From contig NZ_CP011273.1 of the NCBI RefSeq assembly GCF_001610895.1, positions 2,666,001 to 2,730,000 on the forward strand: a DNA stretch of 64,000 nt, given 5' to 3'. This document shows positions 56,936-61,671 of this stretch, one piece after another; positions within the stretch are counted from its first letter, which is position 1; every line of letters begins with the position of its first letter. Below the pieces are notes generated by a model. It did no database searches. It was not told the DNA's origin and saw only the letters and a program-made list of their open reading frames with translations. A program made the translations under genes and the position numbers. Source of the stretch: Planctomyces sp. SH-PL62 (lineage in GTDB: Bacteria; Planctomycetota; Planctomycetia; Isosphaerales; Isosphaeraceae).

Positions 56936-57550
56936 TTCACCTCTCGCCGTCGACTCATCCGAAGGCCGATCCAGACCTCTGCCCGTTTCCCGACCGACCG
57001 ACGAATGACCAAAAACCCTGTCCCGGCGCGCAAAGCCCCAAGAATACGATGCCTCCCGTTCGCAGACTCCGAACGCGGAGCCCGTCATCCCACGTCAATT
57101 TCTCCTCGGATCCCCGCCCACATACGCAACGGATCGGCGGCCCACCCCCTCTCAGGGCCAGCCGAGCCGCCGCCGTCGACGGCGAAACTCCCGAGCGTCC
57201 GAAGCCCTCCTCCCCGTAGATCCAGGCCCGTGACGCCATAACGGCACGTGCGCACAACCGATTTCGTGGATGATCAGCGAATGCGGCGTGGCTGCCGGAA
57301 GCACCTCCTGGACCTACGATCCGGCCCTAAACCGCCGGGCACTGTCCGTCGACTCTCGCGCCAGACCCCCACAGCCACCCCTAGCCCTGACCCGCCGATG
57401 CAGCCAGGCCACCATCATCGGGAACTCGGCAAATCTGCCGAATTTCGTCAAACAGAGCCGAATCATGCTTGACCATGGCCATAAATCACACTATCCATAA
57501 CAACCACTCACATTCTATTTGCTAAACACGTGGGAATGGAGGTTCATCCG
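56936..57550. other. long intergenic region upstream of the protease pair
   Basis: About 615 bp without a supported gene. Its last 100 bp are AT-rich (CATAAATCACACTATCCATA, CATTCTATTTGC) and probably hold the promoter of the metalloprotease-caspase operon, but no clean -35/-10 pair could be assigned. Confidence 0.4.
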
Positions 57551-58936
57551 ATGGGTCATGGCGAGGAGAGGTTGGGCCTACAAGAGGGCGACTTTCAGCC
57601 GGTGGCCTGGGGCGTCCATCGGAGGCGGGTCCTCCAACTCGGCAGCTTGGCGGGCCTCGGTCTCATCTCGGGCGGTTGGGCTCAGGATGGAGAAGCTCTC
57701 ATTGCTCCATCGGACACGGCGGCCTTGCCCTGGGCGGACGTGCCGACGCCGAAGTCCTCCGTCTGCGGCAACACCCCCTTCGGCGGCGCGAGTTACGTCG
57801 GGATCCCCGGCGTTTCCCGCCCGAACGACCTCGGGCCGGGCGAGGGCACGAAGGCCCTGTTCGACCTGGAGAAGGCTTGGCCGATCGGCCAGCCGATCGT
57901 CGTCAAGTTTCTGAACGGCCAGACGCTCCCGGACGGGCGGACCGACCACTGGGGCCTCTTCGTCCACCAGAAGGTGCGCGAGATTGCGAAGACCTGGTGT
58001 GATTACGCGAACGTGACGCTGGAATACGTGGACGCCGGCCCATGCCACATGACGGTCAATTTCCGTCCCTTCGTGGACCAGCGCGGCAGGCACGACTACG
58101 GCCTGTTCAATTCCTTCATCGGCACGGATTGCTTCGAGTTCAAGTCCAGCGTCCAGTCCATGAACCTGCTGTTCTCGCCCGAGATGGACATGTGGGATCC
58201 CGGCTTCCGGGACTCGGAGTTCGACAGGTTGATCCTGCACGAGTTCGGGCACGCCCTGGGCCTGGTCCATGAGCACCAGAGGCCCGACCGCCCGATCGTG
58301 TGGATGCAGGCGCTCTACCCCTACGCGAAGAGCCGCTGGAACTGGGACAGGCAGACGGTCGACGACCAGATCCTCCGTCTGGCGGGGGGAGGCAACTTGG
58401 CGGGGACGGCTTTCGACGTGAATTCGATCATGATGTACGAATACGGCCCGACGCTCGCCTACTACCAGAAGGAGGGGGCCCCGCCGAATACGCCGGACTT
58501 CGCGAGACCGTTCTCCACCAACCGGAACACCGCCCTGAGCGCCCTGGACAAGGTCGCCGCCGCCGTGAGCTATCCTAAGCCCGGGACGCCGCGGATCGGC
58601 GAGGAAGTCCTCACCGTCGACGCGCGCGACGGCGCGATCGCGGAGGCCGGCCAGGTCGCTCCGTTCTCCCTGACGTCCGACGCCTCGGGCGCGGCGACGA
58701 TCGTCGTCGAAGGTCCCATGCCCGCGCTGGTCGGCTTGATGAAGACCCGGAATGGTCGCGACTCGCGGGGCAGCCTTGCCAACATCGCAGCCGCGGCGGA
58801 GCCCGGGCCGGGCGAGGCGGGCGTGACGCTCAGGGCCACCGGCCTCGAGCCGAACAAGCAGCATTTCGTCGAGGTCCGCCATCGGAAACCCATGCGGAGT
58901 CCGTCGGACGGGGCGTTTCGAATCAAGCTCGCTTGA
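57551..58936 (+). CDS. Tat-exported metzincin metalloprotease
   Basis: 461 residues from the ATG at 57551, chosen because GGAGG lies 8 nt upstream; a GTG at 57530 and an ATG at 57536 are alternatives. HRRRVLQLGSLAGLGL near residues 23-38 is a Tat-type signal (RR-x-L followed by a hydrophobic stretch). The zinc site HEFGHALGLVHEH begins near residue 230 (HExxHxxGxxH, then Glu), and the Met-turn is SIMMYEYGP. This is an astacin/matrixin-like metzincin. The C-terminal 120 residues form a beta-rich domain (VAPFSLTSDASGAATIVVEGP), resembling pre-peptidase or binding domains. It is 50 bp upstream of the caspase-family gene, in one operon. Confidence 0.88.
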   Translation: MGHGEERLGLQEGDFQPVAWGVHRRRVLQLGSLAGLGLISGGWAQDGEALIAPSDTAALPWADVPTPKSSVCGNTPFGGASYVGIPGVSRPNDLGPGEGTKALFDLEKAWPIGQPIVVKFLNGQTLPDGRTDHWGLFVHQKVREIAKTWCDYANVTLEYVDAGPCHMTVNFRPFVDQRGRHDYGLFNSFIGTDCFEFKSSVQSMNLLFSPEMDMWDPGFRDSEFDRLILHEFGHALGLVHEHQRPDRPIVWMQALYPYAKSRWNWDRQTVDDQILRLAGGGNLAGTAFDVNSIMMYEYGPTLAYYQKEGAPPNTPDFARPFSTNRNTALSALDKVAAAVSYPKPGTPRIGEEVLTVDARDGAIAEAGQVAPFSLTSDASGAATIVVEGPMPALVGLMKTRNGRDSRGSLANIAAAAEPGPGEAGVTLRATGLEPNKQHFVEVRHRKPMRSPSDGAFRIKLA

Positions 58937-58986
58937 CCGGTCGGCGTGACGGCCCCGGTTGCCCCTACCTGGAGAGGAGCCTGGCC

Positions 58987-61671
58987 ATGAACAGCAGCGA
59001 TCACGGTCCGAGCGCGTGGGCGAACGTCCTGGACCGACGTCGATTCCTCGGCGCCTCGCTCGCGTCGGTCGGGCTGCCGACCCTGAGCATCCGGGTGCTG
59101 GGCCCGAGGGTCGGGGCCGGCGAACAACCTGCGGCGCCCGCCCCTCTCCGGGCCCGAGCCATCGTGATAGGCATCAACAAATATGACAACGCCAAACATT
59201 TGAAGAACCCGGTCCGGGACGCCTGCTCGTTCGCCGCATGGCTGGTGGAGAGGGCGGGCGTCCAGGCCGGGGACGTGGCGCTCCTGATCGGCCCCGAAGC
59301 CGGAGCGAGCGCCGGCGTGCCGGTCGGGATCACCCCCCAGCCGGCCACCCGGGCGGACATCGTGAAGACGATCTTCGATTTCCCGTGCCGGGCCGGCGAG
59401 CGCGAGCGGCTGTACTTCTTCTACTCGGGGCACGGGATGGCTTTCCAGCCCTGGAGCATCCGCCCGGGCAAGCTCGCCGAACAAGAAGCGATCGTCCCGA
59501 GCGACTACGGGGAGATCGAGCCGCCCCCCCTGCTGGTCAACTGGATCCTCGACGTGCTGCGCGCGTCGAGTTTCGTCGAGCAGTTCTTCTTCTTCGACGC
59601 CTGTCGGAGCCTCGCGAAGGTCGACGGGACGGCGGGCGTGCGTCCCAAGTGCTCGGGCGCCGTCCGGGTGCCCGTCCAGTACATCGCATTCTCCACGGCC
59701 CCGCGGGAGGAGGCCTCCGATCGGGAGGGGGGGGCCTTCTCCCCCCGACTCATCGAGGCGCTGACTTCGGCCAAGGGCTCGTCCGCGCTGTTCGACTCGT
59801 GTCGCGAGAGATACCTCGTGCGCTGGGAATCGCTGACCGGCTACCTGTCCGACAGCTTCATGCGCAATCCCGTGGATCTCGGCATGAAGGACGGGAAGGT
59901 CATCAACCAGACCCCGGAACGCGATATCATCCGAGACCTGGGCGGGGACAGCCCCATCCTCGCCGAATTGGCCCCGGAGGTCGTGTCCAAGGTCAAGATC
60001 GCAGTCGACGTGCAGCCGCCGGCGATCCGCCAGGACACCCGCCTCACGATCATCCGAAAGGCGACCGGCTGCCCCCCGACCGACGAGGTCGTCGTCGACC
60101 GCGTCAACGTCCCCGTCGGGGAAGACGACCTTTACGAGATTTATCTCCTCCCCGGCAATTATGCAATGATTGCGGAGATCCACGGGGGAGCGGACCGCCT
60201 GTTCAAGACATTCTTGACGTTGGTCGAGGATCAGACGATACCGCCGTTCGACTTCGCCAGGCCCGTGATCGCCCTGGCCCCGGAGGCCCCCCTCGTGGAC
60301 CCCGGCTTGCATGGCCTGGTCGCCTTCCCGGCGGACGACGGCCCGATGGCCGCCCCGGCCAAACCGTTGGGAGAGGGGCCTCCATCGCCGCCCAAACTGC
60401 TGGGAGAGGGTCCTGCATCGCTCGTCGTGAAGTCGGACGACCTGTTCGGGCAGATCGAATTGCTCGACGCCGGCGGGACCGCGGTTCGATGGCCGGACGG
60501 TCGTGCTTGCACGGCGCTCGGCGAACTGAAGGCGACCAACCTCAAAGCAGGGCTCTATCGCGCGCGATTGCTCTCCCAGTCGGACGGCGATAGGGAGAAG
60601 CTGGTGCAGGTGTCCCCGGGGACGCACAATGAGATATTCCTCGGCGAGAGGGACGTCGCGATCCCGGCCGCCTTCCCGACCGACTTCGATCGGATCGAGA
60701 TGGGCCTGGTCGAGGACGGCGCCGACCTCCCGATCCTCAAGCAGACCCTCGAGCGTCCCATCAAGCCGCTCAGCCCCCTAACCATGCTGGTGCAGCAATT
60801 GCGCGAGGCGGAGCAGGATCGGCGGGTCGCGAAGACCATCCGAGACGGGCTCGGAATGGGGCCCTTCCGCGGCCCGCAGGGGCTCCGGGTCTTGCTGGCG
60901 GCCTCCTCGGGACGACAGCCCGCCCCGTCGGACACCCTGAACGACTTCAGGCTCTCGCTGGGCGGCCTGGACGGGGGCCTGGAAGCAGTCCGGGTCGAAC
61001 CCTCCAAATTGGAGGGCCTGGGGGTCATCGCCCAGGTCCTGGAGCCGGGTCCCTGGCGACTCCGGATCGATCGGGAGTCGAACGGCGAGACGGTGACCCT
61101 CGCTCTGGTCGTCCTCAAGGACCGCGTCACCGAGGTGACCCTGGAGCGACAGGAATCCGGCCGGGTCGCCATCTCCCAGTTCGCCCCGCTCAGGCGCCGC
61201 GGCACGCCGGCCGACGCCGCGACCCTCTACAAGCTCGAACGACTTGAGGCGGCGTTGCAGACGGGGCCCGAGCGTTCGGCGCCCGCCCTGGTAGGAAGGC
61301 TGATCGGCGCCGCCGAGTTCGACCCGCTGATCCTGGCCCTGGCGGCTTTACTGACGGAATCCGGGGTGCGATTCGAAACCCCGCGGTCCATCGGCGGGGA
61401 AATCGTCGAAAGGTTCCCGGAATTGCCAGATGGGCACGTGCTCATGGGAACGGAGGCCGAGAAGGCCGGCAACCTCGACGCGGCCCGCGCCGCCTATGTC
61501 GCCGCCCTGGATCGGGGGCTTCCGATCCTCCAACTGTTCCTCGAACGCCTCGACGACGGGATTCGGCGTCTGGAAATCCCCGACCATCGCCATCTGGAAG
61601 CCCTGCGACATGCAGCGGCGAACCGGATCCCCGGCATGCTCTGGAGCGCCTGGCGAGCCTCGCGAGGCTGA
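58987..61671 (+). CDS. Tat-exported caspase-family (peptidase C14) protein
   Basis: 894 residues from the ATG at 58987 (GGAGAGGAG upstream). Residues 15-35 carry a Tat signal, LDRRRFLGASLASVGL. A caspase-like p20 domain follows (about 50-290): RAIVIGINKYDNAKHLKNPVRDA, catalytic His near 149 in YFFYSGHG and catalytic Cys near 206 in FFFDACRS. The remaining 600 residues are largely beta-rich, with an odd duplicated PPKLLGEGP-type linker at about 455-475, and end in a short TPR-like helical piece (GHVLMGTEAEKAGNLDAARAAYVAALDRGLP). Metacaspases cleave after Arg/Lys; specificity here is unknown. Export of such a protease together with a metzincin is notable. Confidence 0.9.
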   Translation: MNSSDHGPSAWANVLDRRRFLGASLASVGLPTLSIRVLGPRVGAGEQPAAPAPLRARAIVIGINKYDNAKHLKNPVRDACSFAAWLVERAGVQAGDVALLIGPEAGASAGVPVGITPQPATRADIVKTIFDFPCRAGERERLYFFYSGHGMAFQPWSIRPGKLAEQEAIVPSDYGEIEPPPLLVNWILDVLRASSFVEQFFFFDACRSLAKVDGTAGVRPKCSGAVRVPVQYIAFSTAPREEASDREGGAFSPRLIEALTSAKGSSALFDSCRERYLVRWESLTGYLSDSFMRNPVDLGMKDGKVINQTPERDIIRDLGGDSPILAELAPEVVSKVKIAVDVQPPAIRQDTRLTIIRKATGCPPTDEVVVDRVNVPVGEDDLYEIYLLPGNYAMIAEIHGGADRLFKTFLTLVEDQTIPPFDFARPVIALAPEAPLVDPGLHGLVAFPADDGPMAAPAKPLGEGPPSPPKLLGEGPASLVVKSDDLFGQIELLDAGGTAVRWPDGRACTALGELKATNLKAGLYRARLLSQSDGDREKLVQVSPGTHNEIFLGERDVAIPAAFPTDFDRIEMGLVEDGADLPILKQTLERPIKPLSPLTMLVQQLREAEQDRRVAKTIRDGLGMGPFRGPQGLRVLLAASSGRQPAPSDTLNDFRLSLGGLDGGLEAVRVEPSKLEGLGVIAQVLEPGPWRLRIDRESNGETVTLALVVLKDRVTEVTLERQESGRVAISQFAPLRRRGTPADAATLYKLERLEAALQTGPERSAPALVGRLIGAAEFDPLILALAALLTESGVRFETPRSIGGEIVERFPELPDGHVLMGTEAEKAGNLDAARAAYVAALDRGLPILQLFLERLDDGIRRLEIPDHRHLEALRHAAANRIPGMLWSAWRASRG

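Follow-up and report, generated by a model that had tools for sequence, protein, structure and literature searches.

The 64,000-nucleotide window analyzed here stems from Planctomyces sp. SH-PL62 and carries two protease genes, METZ and CASP, which lie on the same (+) strand with 50 bp between them and form an operon-like pair. The host genome (6.78 Mb, completeness 100) contains two matches to the caspase model PF00656, CASP being one of them. An earlier note on this DNA had read the locus as an exported pair of proteases. The pair, its active sites and its signals stand, but CASP turned out to combine a caspase with a fused adaptor-like part, here named X, and METZ to be one of several partners found beside such caspases. 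Positions below are those of the window; G and L numbers denote genomes and loci.

The METZ and CASP genes

The following features were assigned to the two genes.

57538..57542, +, likely ribosome-binding site of METZ (GGAGG; sequence)
57551..58936, +, METZ, myroilysin-type M12A metzincin, 461 aa (Pfam Astacin above cut-off; family profile against 5gwd)
57620..57682, +, twin-arginine translocation (Tat)-type signal of METZ, R24-A44, RRRVLQLGSLAGLGLISGGWA (RR motif and charge-free hydrophobic stretch)
57764..57766, +, METZ Cys72, proposed cysteine-switch ligand in the pro-segment (invariance in aligned relatives)
58238..58273, +, METZ zinc site HEFGHALGLVHE, residues 230-241 (sequence, family alignment)
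58424..58438, +, METZ Met-turn SIMMY, residues 292-296 (sequence, family alignment)
58625..58933, +, METZ C-terminal beta-strand domain, about residues 359-461 (predicted strands; predicted local distance difference test, pLDDT, mostly high)
58987..61671, +, CASP, caspase-family protease fused to an X-like adaptor, 894 aa (Pfam C14; profile comparisons)
59035..59121, +, Tat-type signal region of CASP, residues 17-45, RRRFLG, from R17: RRRFLGASLASVGL (motif and hydrophobic stretch)
59152..59775, +, CASP caspase (C14) domain, residues 56-263 (Pfam PF00656)
59422..59436, +, CASP catalytic His motif YSGHG, residues 146-150 (sequence; GHG in 17/17 pairs)
59590..59610, +, CASP catalytic Cys motif FFDACRS, residues 202-208 (sequence; D-x-C in 17/17 pairs)
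60424..61668, +, CASP X-like adaptor half, residues 480-894 (hhalign)

METZ runs from an ATG at 57551 to its stop at 58936, CASP from an ATG at 58987 to its stop at 61671. METZ exceeds the cut-off of the Pfam Astacin model (27.8 bits against 22.5) and shows both hallmarks of M12A astacins, the HExxHxxGxxHE zinc site and the Met-turn. Its family profile matches myroilysin (5gwd) with E 1.5e-84, covering the catalytic domain end to end. CASP scores 53 bits for Peptidase_C14 (PF00656) against a cut-off of 21.4, and the PADLOC caspase model matches it with E 6.4e-21. The active sites of both proteins are kept throughout the 17 pairs compared, a set that excludes G125, G559 and the Thiodictyon and Kovacikia plasmid loci. 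Pfam, motifs and coordinates agree with the earlier claim of two protease classes with intact active sites lying 50 bp apart.

Cys72 in the pro-segment is constant in 26/26 aligned METZ relatives, as are the zinc ligands; rows and starts of this alignment were chosen by hand, and L050 and L069 stand outside it, L069 having a zinc motif that deviates from the pattern. Cysteine-switch latency of the myroilysin zymogen (M12A; PDB 5gwd, 5czw) is reported in the accessible part of PMC9848320. Since the pro-segment cysteine is invariant in a myroilysin-type astacin, METZ is probably a cysteine-switch zymogen, which would share catalytic domain and mode of latency with myroilysin. Unlike myroilysin, the window METZ adjoins a caspase and carries an extra C-terminal beta domain.

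Two observations on METZ stand apart. Residues 11-20 (57581-57610), ahead of the RR motif, are modelled with fair confidence (mean pLDDT 79) within an otherwise mostly uncertain N-terminus; the stretch contains QPVAW in the window, RPIPW in G014a and DPLPI in the non-exported G028. The NCBIfam model NF050131 ("beta-glucuronidase AbsR1"), whose name fits oddly with a protease fold, matches HExxH metzincins (L063: E 6.7e-49, far under the cut-off).

By Pfam scan, the neighbours of the pair are an upstream beta-helix/GH141-type protein and an ABC-2 permease. The GC content of the pair (0.676, against 0.700 in the remaining window) differs too weakly for a recent transfer to be argued from composition.

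Conservation and linkage of the pair

Searched for in other planctomycetes, the pair proved to be conserved, with copies in G014, G028, G032 and further Planctomycetota. Window-type pairs occur in four of 45 genomes of the family, namely the host itself, G014 (two copies), G028 and G032. In the window METZ comes first; the other four window-type copies, including the closest relative, G014a, all read CASP-METZ. As the order was swapped, the linkage of METZ and CASP has outlived a rearrangement. Identity to G014a, which belongs to another genus, amounts to 60% for METZ and 45% for CASP; against G028 and G032, from the genus of the host, it is 41% and 25-29%, respectively. Transfer or loss fits this patchy pattern, in which the closest relative is found in another genus.

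Compact operons of related METZ and CASP genes are also present in other Planctomycetota and among Alpha-, Beta- and Gammaproteobacteria; in an acidobacterial metagenome-assembled genome (MAG) the two lie convergently. METZ and CASP are separated by 1 to 22 bp in L063, L068, L074, L122 and L156. A blind scan with the METZ alignment returned 53 loci, some of them short; two G014 rows were set aside, leaving 51. Our own caspase hidden Markov model (HMM) placed a caspase gene within 2 kb of the metzincin in six of these. Five are same-strand neighbours (Nitratireductor L063, Roseibium L078, Bradyrhizobium L068, Rhodospirillaceae L074, Thiotrichaceae L081), and the sixth, in the acidobacterial MAG (L086), is a convergent caspase 1.7 kb off with X between. 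In L069, a caspase lies about 6.4 kb away on the opposite strand.

Because this HMM was iterated on the studied loci themselves, a count with PF00656 is cleaner. From the 51 loci, 40 were taken and 39 genomes searched (without L090). At least 4/39 genomes carry a PF00656 caspase gene within 2 kb of the metzincin (L063, L078, L081, L086; matches were assigned to loci via coordinates and open-frame length). The number expected by chance is 0.11 (taking 4 kb at each locus and a hand-summed total of 129 matches over 180.3 Mb; Poisson P 6e-6), or an estimated 0.16 or so once gene lengths are allowed for; L063 and L078 are close relatives, so that the four loci are not independent. The caspases of L068 and L074 have no PF00656 listing at E 0.001, yet the PADLOC caspase model matches them. 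In Nitratireductor and the acidobacterial MAG, PF00656 matches nothing in the genome but the paired caspase.

Other samples add to this. The family search found a caspase beside METZ in 8/25 match rows, mostly with 1.5 kb flanks. On plasmids, a caspase lies directly downstream in four of 15 METZ records, two near-duplicate pairs (Hymenobacter, Paraburkholderia) included in the 15: Sinorhizobium terangae, Cupriavidus campinensis, Bradyrhizobium barranii and Thiodictyon, where the caspase is fused to TIR. The mirror-tree correlation of METZ and CASP is 0.69, a value reached by 0/10000 permutations. It is highly improbable that the two genes are mere chance neighbours, an idea in whose favour nothing was found. 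With at least four genomes observed against 0.1 to 0.2 expected, the plasmid records, the gaps of 1 to 22 bp in five loci and the existence of CASP-X fusions, we reject chance, unless the hits represent one clonal lineage.

Across 392 Planctomycetota genomes, whose neighbourhoods were fetched in part, METZ occurs in at least seven (E 1e-25) and CASP in at least four (E 1e-15). X was found there in at least two genomes, G125 and G261, the host genome not being among them, and likewise in at least two of 297 genomes from the order of the Bradyrhizobium locus, the query genome included. Few candidates per genome were scored, and these counts are therefore lower bounds.

Two loci deserve mention by themselves. 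The METZ relative on a Kovacikia plasmid (L129:5869-6934) is spread across two frames, and a caspase match lies about 1.6 kb off on the opposite strand. Besides its METZ-CASP-X operon, L074 holds a further, divergent METZ, located some 2.3 kb upstream of the operon (L074:3630-4409).

The X component and its exchangeable partners

An hhalign comparison of six window-type CASP C-terminal halves with 11 X proteins gave a probability of 98.3 (E 1.1e-14) over 345 columns, almost to the C-terminus, and for the caspase part the profile match has E 9.8e-22. HMMER with the X profile found G014a (E 8e-6) and G032 (1e-5) in full, and shorter fragments of G014b and G028 (6e-5 to 3e-4). On these comparisons, CASP unites a caspase and, fused to it, the adaptor-like X, which in some relatives is a standalone gene. 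Caspase-X fusions are also found in Sinorhizobium terangae and Cupriavidus campinensis. X stands as a third gene by the caspase in L068, L074 and L086; METZ, CASP and X are separate, close-packed genes in L068, L074, L112, L113 and L156 (gaps -17 to 107 bp), L112 and L113 being the three-gene form of the Isosphaeraceae. The HMM detects no X in 5/17 pairs (G014d, Nitratireductor, Roseibium, Thiotrichaceae, B. barranii).

X has no accepted match in Pfam (four standalone X: L068, L086, L112, L150) or NCBIfam (four X: L068, L086, L113, L156), and none in PADLOC (one X: L068). A model of 476 residues (mean pLDDT 63) predicts two immunoglobulin (Ig)/CnaB-like beta-sandwiches followed by helices. The best Foldseek rows have E 5e-5 to 1e-3 with a large root-mean-square deviation (rmsd). 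VIA rows for residues 3-203 comprise sandwiches of the Ig/CnaB/transthyretin type, both single (best Z 9.4 over 68 residues, rmsd 2.0) and tandem; for the helical part, no informative VIA rows were obtained. As a separate observation, an X-like standalone protein with an RR-type N-terminus, caspase-free, adjoins the second pair of G014 (L040:17600-18718).

Beside caspase and X, the partner varies. We collected 22 CASP-X loci, found with METZ, X or CASP, so that the tally is not a frequency:

METZ partner (14): window, G014a-c, G028, G032, G010, G125 L156, L068, L074, L086, L122, L124, G559
alpha/beta-hydrolase partner (6): L123, L142, L149, L150, L151, L157
subtilisin (S8 peptidase) partner (1): L125
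nuclease-trypsin partner (1): L126

With X as the query on plasmids, five records gave METZ twice and a hydrolase, an S8 peptidase and a nuclease-trypsin once each. The six partner hydrolases are BLAST-related and all have a GHSxG or AHSxG serine motif, L149 alone exceeding the Pfam cut-off; the caspase of L149 lies in a frame missed by the gene caller and was recognized by a tblastn match and the GHG motif. Thus the partner slot is exchangeable and CASP-X is constant.

X itself is fused to trypsin-phospholipase D (PLD) in L123, to trypsin-nuclease in L151 and to TIR-CHAT in L157, where AAA, NB-ARC and TPR matches all fall below cut-off. In L156, the METZ-CASP-X operon is followed after 135 bp by a protein with NACHT and TPR domains above cut-off, and in L131 METZ adjoins a caspase-TIR protein. 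TIR, NACHT/STAND, nuclease and PLD parts are common in bacterial immune and conflict systems.

Some loci with other neighbourhoods were noted alongside. In L064:7953-12158 and L069:7887-12028, a METZ relative precedes an uncharacterised protein (about 580 aa) and a protein with a weak metallo-beta-lactamase (MBL)-fold match (PF00753, below cut-off); these loci may pair a metzincin with a gated nuclease. L114:5064-17193 (G014) holds a Sec-type METZ amid caspase-matching and, by eye, WD40-like proteins. A METZ relative on a Paenibacillus plasmid (L132:2135-9352) lies by two S8 peptidases, a trypsin-like protease and two genes annotated as immunity proteins.

A close known parallel in logic is the caspase-nuclease antiphage system Canu (CanABC). 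According to the accessible part of its description (PMC12799240), a caspase complex switches on a pro-nuclease, and the authors anticipate further proteolytically activated enzymes. As far as that text goes, a Canu operon likewise joins a caspase whose C-terminal part has an Ig-like fold to an accessory partner and an effector that is a latent pro-enzyme, and its loci are described with TPR and Ig-like domains, as in relatives of our cassette. In contrast, the Canu effector is an MBL-fold nuclease, while here it would be a metzincin with a cysteine-switch-like pro-segment, or other hydrolases in relatives, and the window version bears Tat signals. Membership in Canu was rejected: a caspase is present, but the Pfam scan of the neighbours yielded no MBL-fold pro-nuclease beside the window pair; none was noticed in other CASP-X loci, whose neighbours were scanned in part.

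Exchangeable effectors around a constant caspase also characterize the two-gene EACC1-caspase and the ternary MoxR-vWA/VMAP systems in the accessible parts of PMC7159879 and PMC8195603, which mention a caspase paired with an alpha/beta-hydrolase, a metallopeptidase as a rare effector, and rhizobia and planctomycetes as hosts. A metzincin-caspase-X operon was not encountered in those parts, and the X component, with no accepted Pfam or NCBIfam match, sets our loci apart. The EACC1-type caspase model NF047832 was rejected for the window CASP (18.3 bits against a cut-off of 140; relatives 21.7 to 38 bits). MoxR/vWA was not among the scanned window neighbours and none was noticed in CASP-X loci; MoxR is annotated only beside the distant caspase in L152.

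Bacterial gasdermin/CARD and TIR-caspase immunity, as cited in the accessible text of PMC12799240, resembles our loci in its protease-triggered cell-death logic, TIR being linked to caspase in L131 and L157; no gasdermin was noticed in the studied loci, though no search was aimed at gasdermin/CARD systems. Operons of bacterial metacaspases, in the available text of PMC3501461, join caspases with various hydrolases, some with N-terminal helices that are possibly signal peptides; the words metallopeptidase and Tat are absent from that text. Among the matches listed from the open-licence literature, by titles and abstract openings, we found no description of a metzincin-caspase-X operon.

The earlier suggestion that one protease matures the other is plausible, since METZ looks like a cysteine-switch zymogen. 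The simplest reading by analogy is that CASP-X would unlock METZ. The opposite direction, in which METZ, unlocked by itself or by another signal, activates the caspase as executioner, we regard as unlikely. Both active sites are intact, and the varying plasmid and rhizobial partners (S8, trypsin, metzincin) around a constant CASP-X would fit exchangeable activators. However, the non-protease partners (alpha/beta-hydrolase; nuclease and PLD fused to X) fit effectors better than activators, METZ has the pro-segment cysteine, a latency device of CASP lying outside the structural analysis, and in Canu it is the caspase that activates its partner, as its description (PMC12799240) states in the part available.

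Export and a possible activation cascade

RR signals of the Tat type on METZ and CASP, as claimed in the earlier note, are borne out by a motif rule of our own, RRx[FLVIM] ahead of a hydrophobic stretch free of charged residues. Both proteins pass, compared with a background of 25/714 called N-termini, drawn from the studied loci and possibly including the tested proteins, and 38/4900 internal 70-aa segments. TatC is encoded in the host genome (E 1.3e-58). By motif rule and TatC, METZ and CASP are candidate Tat substrates.

Among the 17 pairs, none of the partners carries a signal in 12, both are of Tat type in three (window, G014a, G014b), both of Sec type in one (G014d), and one pair is discordant (G014c); Sec and no-signal classes are our own reading of N-termini and hydrophobicity. 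Both partners are exported in four of the five signal-bearing pairs (Fisher P 0.002), an association that reflects about two events, since the pairs are related. We reject the idea that the pair is exported in general, as Tat/Tat occurs in 3/17 only. The earlier note had contrasted the locus with cytosolic, conflict-type caspases; by motif and hydrophobicity, most relatives sit precisely there, and the window pair appears to belong to a small, unusual Tat branch of a mostly non-exported family. In the caspase tree, whose long branches make it uncertain, the three Tat proteins cluster (97/96), and the non-exported G032 joins them next (85/90). In the metzincin tree, the branching order among G014b, window plus G014a, and G028 plus G032 stays open. 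A single gain of export by both genes is compatible with these trees.

It is improbable that the RR stretches fail as Tat signals and that the window harbours a conflict cassette of the usual cytosolic sort. The signals are judged by motif, and 12/17 pairs look cytosolic. Nevertheless, all six METZ and CASP proteins of the window, G014a and G014b pass the rule, those of G028 and G032 fail it, TatC is present, and the X-only paralogue of G014 that adjoins a pair also shows, by eye, RR and a hydrophobic stretch. Quite unlikely, too, is a nutritional role, with exported matrix-remodelling or nutritional proteases of a degradative planctomycete being co-expressed in no cascade at all. It would fit the Tat-type signals on both proteins and the upstream beta-helix/GH141-type neighbour, and the accessible part of PMC9848320 describes characterised M12A enzymes of bacteria, myroilysin among them, without such a pair. 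But the pair is kept without signals in 12/17 loci, two of them in the genus of the host, and relatives of CASP-X are coupled to TIR, NACHT, nuclease and PLD parts.

We prefer to read the locus as a Tat-exported version of a mobile caspase/adaptor-X cassette with METZ as an exchangeable zymogen partner that the caspase unlocks, with a probability of about one half. We infer the following course. METZ would be held inactive by Cys72 of the pro-segment on the zinc. Once X/CASP is triggered or clustered, the caspase would clip the pro-segment, the cysteine would leave the zinc, and the freed metzincin would degrade proteins. In relatives, this would probably be a cytoplasmic conflict or defence (cell-suicide) machinery, with NLR-type sensors above it in some loci. 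As both proteins of the window carry Tat signals, their branch should act in the periplasm or outside, which would be without an ATP-driven sensor.

Several findings weigh against this reading. The segment around Cys72 is modelled with pLDDT below 50, so that the model gives no support for its placement at the zinc, and the myroilysin profile match begins downstream of it. The pro-segment cysteine also occurs in METZ proteins that have no caspase neighbour, and it is thus a trait of the METZ family and not of the pair. By our own HMM, 45/51 metzincin relatives, some in short loci, have no caspase nearby, and among distant pairs the mirror-tree correlation is down to 0.22. The X profile misses the window CASP in HMMER at E 1e-3, so the link of this protein to X is drawn from profile comparison. 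The pair in G014c is discordant, with a signal on METZ only. The neighbours of the window pair, beta-helix protein and ABC permease, are not of defence type, and the sole NACHT match of the host genome lies about 2.6 Mb away. In viral contigs, none of 10 X pattern matches was confirmed, and phage records contained no relative of the Bradyrhizobium METZ.

Taken together, the window locus is best read as a caspase/zymogen cassette of immune type whose place has shifted out of the cytoplasm. The cassette would be of the protease-activated effector kind, neither Canu nor EACC1 as tested, with an adaptor family X that is unnamed in the searched libraries. That it forms a cascade of immune ancestry outside the cytoplasm, in which the caspase-adaptor fusion, once exported, unlocks a likewise exported cysteine-switch metzincin and which derives from a cytosolic, partly NLR-linked cassette with a freely exchanged partner, is a possibility we put forward with some doubt. 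The locus offers a concrete candidate for the forecast of the Canu authors, a caspase paired with a seemingly self-locked metalloprotease, and adaptor family X marks such loci. The exported branch poses the question whether a caspase-type cascade is workable outside the bacterial cell, which concerns cell death and competition in bacteria as well as the early history of caspases. If true, such a cascade would be the prokaryotic counterpart, in its logic, of defence cascades that work by extracellular proteolysis.

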